This document shows positions 57,628-62,322 of a stretch of DNA of 64,000 nt, one piece after another. Every line of letters starts with the position of its first letter. The first letter of the stretch is position 1. The notes under the pieces were generated by a model. The model was not told the DNA's origin. It ran no database searches and saw nothing but the letters and a program-made list of their open reading frames with translations. Source of the DNA: Novakomyces olei (lineage: Eukaryota; Ascomycota; Novakomycetes; Novakomycetales; Novakomycetaceae); assembly GCA_016906335.1 (NCBI GenBank), contig JADEYG010000015.1:186001-250000 (forward strand), in the 5' to 3' direction. Both the position numbers and the translations under genes were made by a program.

Positions 57628-58678
57628 ATGGCCGAGCCAGCAGACGACTTGAGGCGGTTACGTTTAGACGATGAGAATGAAAATAAAAAAATTGACGACG
57701 AATTACACCGCGCTGCGCTTGAACGCGAACTCGTTGGTATCCGCGCTCTTAACGCGACAATTTCAAATATGACGGGGTCTCTGCGAGCAGGAGTCGACAA
57801 TTTGCAGGTAGCTTCTCAAGATCGTCTGGCTTTATTCTTTTGATTATGCGTGGACCCTTCTAATATCCCCAAGGTACTTCATACATCTGTGCAAAATGCA
57901 GAAAAATTATTAGATCTATGGACCAAAGTACTTTCACAGTCCTATCATACACAGCGGCTTTTATTAGATCCGCGCTGGCACGGACAAACTAATGTAAGGC
58001 CAATTTGGTGTATGCGTCAAACTTTTGCGCACTAGTATCTCTGCTTTTACTGTTTTTTTCTCTGCTCTTTTGTCTTTGTTGAAAGAAGACGGTGCATGAA
58101 TGTTTGTGGCCTCTGACAGCACTGCTATTTTAGTGCATTAATGCGTTTGATATAGTATTTTAATTATCTTTCATCACTCTGCGTTTTTCAGGTTTGGGGT
58201 TACTTTCATACAGTTGCAATATCTCTTTTATTGCCCTTTCACAATATCATTTGATCGCGGACCTTTATAGGTGTATATACCACTTTTAATTCTAACTTTC
58301 CAGGACGAGGAAGAGCAACAGCGTATACAACAAAAGGCTTTACAAGCAGCACAAGAGGCAGAAACCGCACGCTTGCGCCGAGAAGAAGAACTGGCTCTTC
58401 AAGAGAAGCGTCAAGCGACAGCAGCAGCAGCAAAAGCAGCAGCCAGCAGCACTGCCTCTACTACCCCATCGCGGCGTGGCATTTCTCGTCTCTCTCGGCC
58501 CGGCCACTCTATACGTGGAAGCACGAGGGGCAGTGGGTTAGTACGTGGAACAGTCCGTTCAATACCAGGTTCAAGTACTGAAAGAGGTCGTGCAACAACA
58601 GTACGACGCGTCGTGCGGAGAGTTCCGGCTGGAACTGCTCGAGGTGGTGTAATAAGAGGCGTTTCAAGGAATTCATAA
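57628..58678 (+). CDS. DUO1: DASH complex subunit Duo1, three exons
   Basis: Exons 57628-57807, 57874-57993 and 58304-58678 encode 224 residues. Duo1 is part of the ten-subunit DASH/Dam1 ring that couples kinetochores to microtubules. Conserved elements are the N-terminal ELVGIRALNATISNM helix and, in exon 2, the family signature LLDLWTKVLSQSYHTQRLLL with DPRWHG. A coiled acidic/basic segment (EEEQQRIQQKALQAAQEAET) and an Arg/Gly/Ser-rich tail follow. Introns are 66 and 310 nt and end in TAATATCCCCAAG and TTCTAACTTTCCAG. Size fits other Duo1 proteins; the RG-rich tail is longer than I would expect. Confidence 0.92.
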
Positions 58679-59127
58679 GATTTTGGGTTTAGCTATTGCA
58701 TTTTATAATTAAATGTTATTTTTCCTCCTTTTTTAAAATTTGCTTAATTCACGTTTTGCGGGCAATATCAAAGTCATTATTTTTGGCAGTCAATCTCTGG
58801 CAAGAGTTCGTTAGGCCAATATCAGGCCTTAAACAAACCAAATCATTTCTTATAAAGGCAAAAATCTGAGCAAATAATGGATCGAATGAACCGATCTATA
58901 CAATCTCGTTTGGAGGTGATTATCATCACGCTTTAGTTGGAGTTCTACGCAATGATATACGGTGAAACAAACTCAAGCTTGAAGATATGAATTAACAAAG
59001 CAGTCCGAGCTCAGACGAAATCAGAAAAGAAAATGATCGGTATAAAGAGCCTTCAGGTGATGCGCCATCGAGTGCACAACGCTCCAAAGCCTTTGTGTTG
59101 ATCGCGCAAAGAACCGGAATTCAATAT
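58679..59127. other. Convergent intergenic region
   Basis: 450 bp between DUO1 and the pheromone-precursor gene (minus). No feature is supported. Confidence 0.4.
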
Positions 59128-59305
59128 TTAGGCGATAACGCTGCTATTAGTAAAAGAATAATAAAAATGATTGAAGCAAACACAAATTCTCAACTTACCA
59201 TCCATAGTAAGGATGGGCGCGTTCAAGGTTGTTGCTCTGAGCGCCAGAGAAAAGGTCATCGGCCTTGTTGCCAGAGTCGGCGATGTTCTGTGCGATGGGC
59301 TGCAT
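59128..59305 (-). CDS. Farnesylated lipopeptide mating-pheromone precursor (a-factor/M-factor type), two exons
   Basis: Exons (minus) 59305-59199 and 59140-59128 join across a 58-nt intron (GTAAGT donor, TTACTAAT branch site) to a 39-residue precursor. It begins MQPIAQNIAD, as S. cerevisiae a-factor begins MQP, and ends LERAHPYYGCVIA. The CVIA at residues 36-39 is the CaaX box of S. cerevisiae a-factor and S. pombe M-factor, marking farnesylation, aaX removal and carboxyl methylation on the cysteine. The Asn-Asn at about 25-26 is a possible Axl1-type cleavage point, which would leave LERAHPYYGC-farnesyl, but this is inference. The cysteine codon itself is split TG|C by the intron. No second in-frame upstream ATG is present. 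A TATA box and clustered repeats lie upstream. The gene is too short for ordinary ORF calling. By name it would be an MFA gene; I leave the symbol empty since no orthology was tested. Confidence 0.87.
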
Positions 59306-59390
59306 GATGATTGAGAAGAGAGAGTGTTTGGTGTTTAAAGACCGTTTGTGATTGAAGAATGTGGATGCTGTTTGAAGGTGCAGAGCTGCT

Positions 59391-59399
59391 GTTTATATA
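59391..59399 (-). promoter_or_regulatory. TATA box of the pheromone-precursor gene
   Basis: On the minus strand TATATAAAC lies about 90 bp upstream of the pheromone ATG, between the start and the CCATTCAC cluster. Position and sequence fit a strong, regulated promoter. Confidence 0.6.
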
Positions 59400-59443
59400 G
59401 ACATTTCTCTGGGTGTGCGCATGATTGTATAAAGAGCCTTTGT

Positions 59444-59672
59444 CATTCACTAGCCATTCACAACGTAGCATAGTCTTTTCAAGGACTGGGTTTGCCTTGC
59501 ACCTTGTATTTTGCCATTCAGAACCATTCACAGAACGTGCGCCGGTGAAAGACAGCCCATTCACACTTTGTAGTAAGGTTCTTATCGGATTACCTTTGCC
59601 CATTCACGAGCCATTCACGAATTCTAACGTGTTTTCATTCTGCGACCTTGGCCATTCACAAATTGCATTCAC
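59444..59672 (-). promoter_or_regulatory. Cluster of CCATTCAC (GTGAATGG) repeats upstream of the pheromone gene
   Basis: On the plus strand CCATTCAC occurs exactly at 59454, 59524, 59557, 59600, 59611 and 59652, all in the same orientation; one-base variants lie at 59444, 59514 and 59665. That makes nine copies in 229 bp, from about 140 to 370 bp upstream of the pheromone start (minus strand). The repeats are dispersed at irregular spacing, not in tandem, as expected of binding sites. They are not the S. cerevisiae pheromone response element (TGAAACA) nor the S. pombe TR-box. A (TTCA)n tract at about 59866-59898 lies farther out. Confidence 0.7.
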
Positions 59673-60592
59673 AAATTCTCTACTGTTCTTTTATTGCTTT
59701 CCCTTTTGCCATAAACAAAAAGACGTTTCTATTTTTCCTACATTGTTTTGAAGGCTTCCCTTCGAGTCCAAGTATCTTCCTTTGTATTTGTTAATCCAGC
59801 TGAAACACAAAGGCTTTTGTCATTGGCTGCAATATACAAATTGAAGTCTTTTCACCCACCCACCCATTCATTCATTCATTTATTCATTCATTCATTCATT
59901 GACGAATGATATAGCATTATTGCTTTATTTTGCGCGTTCACAAATGCTTCTCCATGATATCCACCTTATCTCTTTCTGTTTATTCATGTGATTTTTATTC
60001 GAAGACTATTCGGCAAACAGCTCGGCGCAATAAAAAGAATCACACTGGCTCCTTTCGCCTTGTATTATTACTGTTTGACTACTCTTCAAGCTAATAGGAG
60101 AATGAGCAAGTTGAATAGCAGAAATTTCATAATCACAACCTGGTAGGATGCCTTGCAATCAATACTCGTTGGGAATTGTGAGTATAAGAAAAGATATCTG
60201 TTACGAGGCATATATCGATGAAATGTAGATCTTTTGAATTGAAGTAGACCGAAAAGGTTTCCAGACGCATAAACAAATGGTTGTAAAAGCAAACGGCAAT
60301 GTCTTTGATACAAGTTAAATTAGCCCATATCAGCTTTTCATAAATTCTGACGTTAGAAGGGCTGTCACACGATACATGTATATTGCGAATACTCAAAGCG
60401 CTATAATCAGTAGTCAATTTGGGTTTATTTCAAGGTGCGTCGATCACCTGAATAAATTTGGGCGTCATTGACCAATAGGTCGGACAAGACTCTAGTCTTG
60501 TTCAACGCCGATTATTGGATCGTTGATCCATTTCATTCAACGGCGGAGAAACACAGACTATTCATTAAAAAATAAGGCAAAATTCGGTTTAA
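59673..60592. other. Intergenic region between the pheromone gene and the hydrolase
   Basis: 920 bp. It holds a (TTCA)n microsatellite at about 59866-59898 and an 18-bp dyad at 60484 (listed separately). No second pheromone copy was noticed. Short frames near 60086-60417 look non-coding. Confidence 0.45.
60484..60501. repeat. Palindrome with 8-bp arms upstream of the hydrolase gene
   Basis: Arms ACAAGACT and AGTCTTGT flank a two-base centre CT, about 92 bp before the hydrolase ATG. Partial symmetry continues outward (GGCG...CGCC; CCAATA...ATTGG). It may bind a dimeric factor. Confidence 0.6.
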
Positions 60593-62322
60593 ATGAATTC
60601 TGCATGGAAAACAACAGCGGCAGCAGTTGCCACTGCTACTGCTTTTATTCTATGGCGTTCATATCTGGCTCCATTCAGTGCGACGGAGAAAAAACTGCTG
60701 CAAAATAATGGTGAGTCCGCAAAAGAAGGAGAAGAGAGAAAGGATAATTATTTAATGAAAAATATACATTTAATGAGCAGTTCGTTCGCGGCAATTTTAT
60801 CACGTATAGTTACTGACTTTCAAAAGTAGAGTCCGAGTTTCTACGGAAGAATTCACGAAGGCTTATATTTGCGCTAGCCGATGTCGATGACAGCGGTACC
60901 TACGATGTACGCGTCTTTGCGCACAATGTGACGCGTCCAGTAACCGTTGTTTTCATACACGGGTTGGGCGGCAATGTGCAACAATGGGAGCCTCAATTAC
61001 GCGCTTTCTGCGACCAAGGCTATGGCGTAGTAGCCATAGATCTACCGGGCCACGGTGCGTCAGCTTTTGCTCCCAAACAGTGGGCAAGCTATGAGAGCAC
61101 ACGGCTCGTACGTGTAATAGAACACTGTCTACATACTCTAGGGCTGGCAAACAAGATTGTTTTGGTAGGACATTCTATGGGGTGCCAGTTGGTGGGCAGA
61201 CTGGCGTATCAGTCTGGCAAAACCAGCAAACAAGTCGCAGTTGACGGCAAACAGGTATTGAGCAATATTACTGGTGTAGCACTTCTCGCTGGCCGGGGCC
61301 CCGTGCCTGTAACCTCGGAGATGGCAGCCGTGCGAAGGATGGTTAATATACCGGATTTTTTGTTCAACGCGTTCCGTCGTCGCGATCGGGCGGAAGGTCC
61401 CGATTCTAAGAGCGTAAGGAGAATGGTATCAAGCACGGCTTCGCGGTCTGTACGCACGCAGCAACTCGTATGGAATTTGATGTCAAAGACTCCAGTATGG
61501 AAACGGACAGTGAGCGGTTTAAAGCCGGCTACTGCGGCTGAATGGCAGGAATTGCGAGTACCCGTGCTTGTAATTGCCGGTCAAGATGTAAGTTTATTTG
61601 CAATTACTTCTATAAAGGAGTGCCTGGACAAGTGTGGTCAACACAGCCCTGGTTTGTCCGGCTCTTGTGGTTTACACCTATCATTTGTATCCTTGTCGCG
61701 TCTCTTTAGTTGACACAACAGGACCGTGTTGCACCGCCTGAACAGTCCGAGCTAATAGCAAAGCTGGTCCCAAATTGTCGTGGATACGTTACAGTTCCCA
61801 ACGCCGGACACAGTCTTATGCTCGAAGCACCAGAAAAGGTTTGTTTTGTAGATTTTTATTGTCTTGAGGCCTGTAGTCTACGTATCCAAAAGCGCGGTAA
61901 CGCCATTCTATTCATTCTTCTCTCCTATGCTCTTAGTGTGTCTATACATTATTCTGGCGAGTTTGCTTTGATTGTTCACATTTTTTCATTTAAGCATATA
62001 AATTCAAATATTGTTTTACATTATATTTAATTATTATTATCGTCGCATTTAACATTTACTTGAATTTTACTTGTTTTTACACGTATTTTTAATTAATCTC
62101 TATTTTATTTCTATTTTATTTCCATTTTATTTCCATTTTATTTCTATTTTATTCCTATTTTATTTCTATTTCGCTTTTGTCCACCCGTATAGAATATATG
62201 CGCCTCGACAATTCTGCCTTGTGCGATGTCGGCGCAGCGCCTCCAAGCGTCTCTTTATTCCATTGGACAAAACTGACTTTCAGATCAATGAATTGCTACT
62301 CTCGTTCGTCGCGTCACTGTGA
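60593..62322 (+). CDS. Membrane-anchored alpha/beta hydrolase, four exons
   Basis: Exons 60593-60710, 60827-61587, 61722-61838 and 62284-62322 give 344 residues. The N-terminus contains a single hydrophobic anchor (about 8-25; AAAVATATAFILWRSYLAPF). The fold shows HGLGGNVQQWEPQL with the oxyanion HG, the nucleophile elbow GHSMG (Ser), the acid in GQDDRV at the exon 2/3 join and the catalytic His in NAGHSLML. The last exon is 13 codons (INELLLSFVASL) after a 445-nt intron; longer frames there are intron sequence. It resembles ABHD8-like or epoxide-hydrolase-type serine hydrolases; the substrate is unknown. Introns begin GTGAGT, GTAAGT and GTTTGT. Confidence 0.82.

Follow-up and report, generated by a model that had tools for sequence, protein, structure and literature searches.

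How can the gene of a lipid-modified mating pheromone be recognised, given that hardly anything in such genes is conserved beyond a four-residue tail, which makes them difficult to find? The question is raised by a predicted two-exon gene on the minus strand of a 64,000-nt stretch (hereafter the window: the whole stretch analysed, C15:186001-250000, GC 43.0%) from Novakomyces olei, a little-known yeast from olive oil. We propose, with a probability of about 0.88, that this gene encodes the one precursor detected for the lipid-modified mating pheromone of N. olei, of the a-factor/M-factor type, and that it belongs to a small co-regulated set resembling the M-cell regulon of fission yeast. It is very probably a gene for a lipid-tailed pheromone, because the signal in its promoter also fronts genes whose products are expected to complete such a pheromone, carry it out of the cell and act alongside it. 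Judged from the sequence, the precursor would be of a known kind, here placed under a diverged regulatory element.

The sequence-only reading had described a spliced minus-strand gene for a 39-residue peptide ending in CVIA, and recomputation recovered this model exactly (59305-59199 joined to 59140-59128 over a 58-nt intron). The GTAAGT donor, the TACTAAT-type branch site and the in-phase exon junction are likewise present, with the intron 59198-59141 ending in TTTTACTAATAGCAG. Translated from the ATG at 59305, the predicted product is MQPIAQNIADSGNKADDLFSGAQSNNLERAHPYYGCVIA. The parts of the gene are:

59199..59305, minus strand: exon 1, the ATG plus 35 whole codons less the split one, with the TG of the CaaX cysteine codon at its 3' end (from coordinates, translation and GC content at third codon positions, GC3)
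59141..59198, minus strand: intron of 58 nt, phase 2, with donor GTAAGT, branch-like TACTAAT and tandem acceptor TAG-CAG; it interrupts the CaaX cysteine codon
59128..59140, minus strand: exon 2, the final base of the Cys codon followed by Val-Ile-Ala and TAA

Given the predicted splicing at CAG, the gene would encode a CaaX precursor of 39 residues with a CVIA end. The third positions of exon 1 are coding-like: its GC3 is 0.66, whereas the nearby flanks average 0.38 and do not exceed 0.57. No second copy of the precursor was found in the genome (14,339,745 bases in 15 contigs) by protein search at E <= 10. Under a rule that demands a GTAAGT donor, a branch-like site, an AG and a CaaX end, the window holds one mini-gene, compared with a mean of 0.1 (maximum 2) in 60 Markov-1 controls of equal length, none of which produced a CVIA, CVIM or CVVA ending. 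At a control rate of about 0.1 per 64 kb, the peptide was rejected as sufficient evidence alone.

The evidence that carries the identification lies upstream of the gene. The TATA box of the earlier reading was found, and the promoter repeat cluster that it had noted is real: the motif GTGAATGG occurs eight times in the window against 1.70 expected, a count reached by none of 100 shuffles, and six of the eight copies lie on the strand of the gene within 59454-59659. The clustering is far beyond chance. The promoter contains the following features:

59392..59399, minus strand: TATA box TATATAAA, starting 94 bp upstream of the ATG
59437..59461, minus strand: composite element GTGAATGGCTAGTGAATGACAAAGG, proximal copy (motif searches)
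59524..59531, minus strand: single GTGAATGG, then TTCTGAATGGCAAAATACAAGG, an imperfect composite (motif searches)
59557..59564, minus strand: single GTGAATGG (motif count)
59593..59618, minus strand: composite element GTGAATGGCTCGTGAATGGGCAAAGG, second full copy (motif searches)
59646..59672, minus strand: related element GTGAATGCAATTTGTGAATGGCCAAGG, with CCAAGG outside the strict CAARGG box

Past this cluster, at 59864-59900 of the window, there is a CATT-type tandem repeat whose reading on the strand of the gene, TGAATGAATG, is near the element core.

A real mating promoter might in principle drive another product, either a non-coding transcript or a different small protein, with the CVIA end produced by the chance joining of two short frames. 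The control rate of CaaX mini-genes given above leaves some room for such an accident, but exon 1 begins 87 bp past the TATA box and has the third positions of a coding sequence, the window contains just one mini-gene of this form, and Rfam families gave no match in 58000-61000. We therefore consider a different product very improbable and retain the CaaX precursor as the likely output of this promoter.

Does the promoter signal lead to other genes? The element was defined on the promoter of the pheromone candidate alone and then sought across the whole genome. Pairs of GTGAATGG within 30 bp exist at two places, the pheromone promoter (2 matches) and C9:322730-322750 (1 match), with none in the reversed control. 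Pairs of GTGAATG yield 12 matches at nine places, against 4 matches in the reversed control; the pheromone promoter holds four of the 12, and three of the eight remaining places lie upstream of mating-pathway genes, namely the ABC exporter, the Ste14-type methyltransferase and STE2. Besides the pheromone promoter, the places are:

C9:322730-322750: GTGAATG/GTGAATGG pair, 158-178 bp upstream of the ATG of a full-size ABC transporter gene
C4:879445-879462: GTGAATG pair, 56-73 bp upstream of the ATG of an isoprenylcysteine methyltransferase (ICMT) gene
C7:350709-350728: GTGAATG pair, 461-480 bp upstream of the STE2 ATG, with a third GTGAATG further up
C1:1650-1676, C9:1647788-1647814 and C10:21652-21677: GTGAATG pair in one repeat present in three copies, none further than 6 kb from a contig end and none with CAARGG
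C12:656108-656130 (L024:4109-4131): GTGAATG pair between sterol-transporter-like and CDK-like frames (named by eye), with ACAAAGAAA downstream
C15:541277: GTGAATG pair, no evident mating gene

The chance of three hits in eight places is about 1e-5 by rough arithmetic, assuming two neighbouring genes per place and 12 M-kind genes, the number given as known for Schizosaccharomyces pombe in the account of its M-specific genes (PMC1693924), among the 3,779 genes of N. olei, a yeast of the Taphrinomycotina (PMC7912804). A second box accompanies the pairs at the mating genes. CAARGG (CAAAGG or CAAGGG) follows a GTGAATG pair within 30 bp at all four mating promoters, those of the pheromone, exporter, STE2 and methyltransferase genes, and at none of the five other places; within the pheromone promoter, two of the four pairs are so followed. 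The composite reads GTGAATGGGCTTCGTGAATGGGCAAAGG at the exporter and GTGAATGGCCGTTGTGAATGTACAAGGG at STE2, and takes a wider version at ICMT. The pattern GTGAATGN{0,3}CAAAGG matches four times genome-wide (control 0), twice in the pheromone promoter, once at the exporter and once within an open frame on C3, and a mixed-orientation pattern of the element was found at two places, without an evident mating gene among the frames listed.

The search thus reached a Ste6-like exporter, STE2 and a Ste14-type methyltransferase from the promoter repeat, and the genome also encodes STE3 and three prenyltransferase-beta-like places, with subtypes not told apart, all of which supports the pheromone assignment made from the sequence alone. 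The exporter gene on C9 joins over four introns into a full-size Ste6-like ABC transporter of 1353 aa, and the methyltransferase on C4 has 247 aa (ICMT, E 4.7e-27). STE2 is an intact frame of 442 aa (PF02116, E 2.2e-71) at C7:348920-350248 on the minus strand (L004:1042-2370). STE3 is an intact frame of 424 aa (PF02076, E 3e-80) whose promoter has no GTGAATG pair.

The company of these genes also bears on the possibility that the product is a farnesylated small protein acting inside mating cells, for instance at the membrane during fusion, rather than a secreted signal. A CaaX box alone is no sign of secretion, and some other CaaX proteins remain intracellular; but the element also stands before the genes of a Ste6-like ABC exporter and a carboxyl methyltransferase, and STE3, of the family that senses such lipopeptides, is encoded in the genome as well. 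An intracellular role is in our estimate the least probable of the alternatives considered here, and the secreted lipopeptide is preferred.

Several observations weigh against the identification as a pheromone gene with its own regulon. About 20 CaaX mini-genes of this form are expected by chance in a genome of 14.3 Mb, so that, taken alone, the peptide does not reach significance across the genome. At five of the nine places with a GTGAATG pair no mating gene is evident. One of the five, C12:656108, carries within 30 bp ACAAAGAAA, which resembles the S. pombe Ste11 site AACAAAGAAA; the second-box rule is to this extent not perfectly clean, and this place may also belong to the regulon. In the STE3 promoter, too, a lone GTGAATGG stands at -549, some 75 nt past the stop of the likely frame of the neighbouring gene, with a separate GCAAAGG at -163. 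The predicted precursor resembles S. pombe Mfm1 weakly and Mfm2 not at all: in comparisons made after trimming of Met and CVIA, the number of shuffles out of 2000 that attained the similarity score (local and global, respectively) was 2 and 2 for Mfm3, 36 and 18 for Mfm1, and 1175 and 131 for Mfm2, and the similarity is suggestive only. Finally, the exporter has a paralogue:

C7:1920346-1924446 (L037:847-4947), plus strand: second full-size ABCB gene, a 1367-aa open frame, apparently intronless

This paralogue has no GTGAATG in the 700 bp upstream, yet its best chain is 7qkr, labelled as an a-factor exporter, with 1132 bits, whereas the C9 protein scores 348 bits against 7qkr and higher, 413 bits, against vertebrate P-glycoproteins. 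We take 7qkr to be the P-glycoprotein-like STE6-2p of Komagataella, a name for which the literature search gave no source, and its label 'export of a-factor' was not accepted as proof for the C7 paralogue. Because the paralogue fits 7qkr better, the choice of the C9 gene as exporter depends on its promoter and its divergence from the general type; by these signs it is likely the pheromone exporter, a candidate counterpart of Ste6/Mam1.

How does the proposed set compare with known pheromone systems? S. pombe Mfm precursors end in CVIA, and the mature M-factor likewise has -PY- near its C terminus. The sequence-only reading had held the core of the peptide to be unlike that of M-factor, which is too strong: besides this -PY-, the N. 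olei and S. pombe precursors have GNK in the pro-region in common. The resemblance extends to a CaaX precursor of about 40 residues with one pheromone copy and to introns, which are mentioned for the mfm genes (PMC6342294). The cores themselves differ, LERAHPYYGC in N. olei and YTPKVPYMC in S. pombe (PMC6342294), as does gene number, one found here against three mfm genes. M-specific genes of S. pombe, in the account cited above, include mfm1-3, the exporter gene mam1, the P-factor receptor gene mam2 and, less strictly, mam4 for methylation, and a Mat1-Mc box (M-box) stands upstream of the Ste11 box (PMC1693924). As far as that account describes them, exporter, P-factor receptor and methyltransferase are co-regulated with the precursor in S. 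pombe by a composite site that has an ACAAAG-type box as its second part (PMC1693924), and the N. olei set would be controlled in a similar way; the order of the boxes and the kinds of genes are the same, and the sequence of the first box differs, being a GTGAATG tandem in N. olei, distinct from the ACAATG-like M-boxes described there (PMC1693924).

Other lineages offer more distant parallels. The a-factor system of Saccharomyces cerevisiae combines MFA1/MFA2 with STE6, STE14 and RAM1/RAM2, and would share with the N. olei gene the predicted farnesylated and methylated chemistry, ABC export and a receptor of the STE3 type; the N. olei gene differs in its core, in the intron within its coding region and in its promoter element. 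STE14 is not known to be a-specific in S. cerevisiae. Putative a-factor genes of Leotiomycetes are very short CaaX genes, often missed by gene callers and not found by homology searches (PMC10569646), and in being very short and easily missed the present gene resembles them as they are portrayed there. The search for those genes, according to the same description, drew on short proteins in the annotation, on relatives and on expression data (PMC10569646), whereas the support in N. olei comes from a shared cis-element.

A further peculiarity of the gene is that its CaaX box depends on the choice of splice site. The intron ends in two tandem acceptors, TAG followed by CAG (TTTTACTAATAGCAG). The predicted joining at CAG gives ...YYGCVIA, and joining at TAG gives ...YYGCSVIA, without a CaaX box; the unspliced frame terminates within the donor (TGG TAA) and ends in YYGW. 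A CaaX box therefore requires splicing at the second acceptor. A branch-to-AG profile drawn from 144 kb had too few entries to discriminate between the acceptors, and the comparison was made with the introns of the Ste6-like gene, whose exons were joined by eye following protein homology. In its introns 1 to 4 the AG lies 6, 6, 8 and 9 nt past the branch A, and intron 3, which ends in TACTAATAGCCTAG, contains a nearer TAG at 3 nt that would break the frame. In the pheromone intron the distances are 3 nt for TAG and 6 nt for CAG, and since the introns of the Ste6-like gene follow this distance rule, the TAG should be skipped and CAG used, a prediction that rests on the introns of one gene.

Splicing might alternatively act as a switch, with retention (YYGW) or TAG use (CSVIA) leading to products that cannot be farnesylated and active pheromone made only with CAG. 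This would add to the pheromone reading rather than replace it, and both the tandem acceptor and the stop codon within the donor are there in the sequence. Set against it, intron 3 of the Ste6-like gene must skip a TAG at equal distance, introns 1 and 2 use an AG at 6 nt as CAG would be used, and an intron within a short gene does not require regulation; we regard such a switch as unlikely, and use of CAG in a pheromone precursor remains our preferred expectation.

What mechanism could unite these elements? In the scheme that we infer, expression would be under cell-type control: a mating regulator would read the GTGAATG tandem, a diverged counterpart of the M-box, a Ste11-type HMG regulator would bind the CAAAGG beside it, and the composite switch would turn on the precursor, the Ste6-like exporter, the Ste14-type methyltransferase and STE2 together. 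The spliced 39-aa precursor would then be farnesylated at the cysteine of CVIA, lose VIA and be carboxyl-methylated, and its pro-region would be cut before about the last ten residues, perhaps as SNN|LERAHPYYGC. The cut after SNN is a guess prompted by the Asn that precedes the pro-region cut in both a-factor and M-factor. The mature peptide would be exported by the ABC exporter and sensed by STE3.

Among candidates for such regulators, the HMG-box search gave six matches in the genome, with GTGAATG at none of the six loci. A Ste11-like HMG frame (C4:1067315), so called from a reading of its HMG sequence, shares one 7-kb stretch of C4 with a spermidine synthase frame (E 4.2e-75); the species paper, in its treatment of mating genes, refers to an HMG box that was found along with ste11 and spermidine synthase (PMC7912804). 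PF04769 (alpha domain) has no match in the genome, and the profile is silent in control genomes too, hence this is no proof of absence. Near 1037364 on C3 (L042:1261-1839, plus strand), between RhoGAP and choline-kinase frames, a 192-aa open frame has a weak HMG-box match (E 0.0083, under the curated cut-off) and contains GTGAATGGCAAAGG within its coding sequence. This frame might be a diverged mating-type gene.

These results modify the published picture of the species. Its description presents N. olei as primary homothallic, with ste3 present, ste2 lacking and no homologues of the S. pombe mat genes found, and the sections on mating genes name no pheromone precursor (PMC7912804). The intact STE2 frame contradicts the statement that ste2 is lacking. 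In being homothallic without recognised mat genes N. olei differs from S. pombe, and one may ask whether it nevertheless retains the whole M-type regulon of precursor, exporter, methyltransferase and STE2 under the diverged switch of GTGAATG tandem and CAAAGG, with a CaaX box made by splicing at the tandem acceptor that places farnesylation and mating competence under splicing control. We doubt this combined picture in its full extent; the identification of the gene as a pheromone precursor within a small co-regulated set is put forward separately from it. A full-text literature search for N. olei and pheromone returned the species paper alone (PMC7912804), and no M-factor or CaaX pheromone from Taphrinomycotina outside Schizosaccharomyces was evident among the matches listed, including PMC6747714, most subscription papers being outside the scope of the search.

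The gene is thus a candidate lipopeptide pheromone for a lineage of Taphrinomycotina outside Schizosaccharomyces. A cis-element that it has in common with the genes of a likely exporter, of a methyltransferase and of a receptor offers a homology-free route to genes of this kind, and the distribution of the element suggests that the M-cell regulon of fission yeast has an architecture that outlived the sequence of its boxes. With a candidate signal at hand, self-signalling of a homothallic haploid that carries both receptors becomes directly testable.
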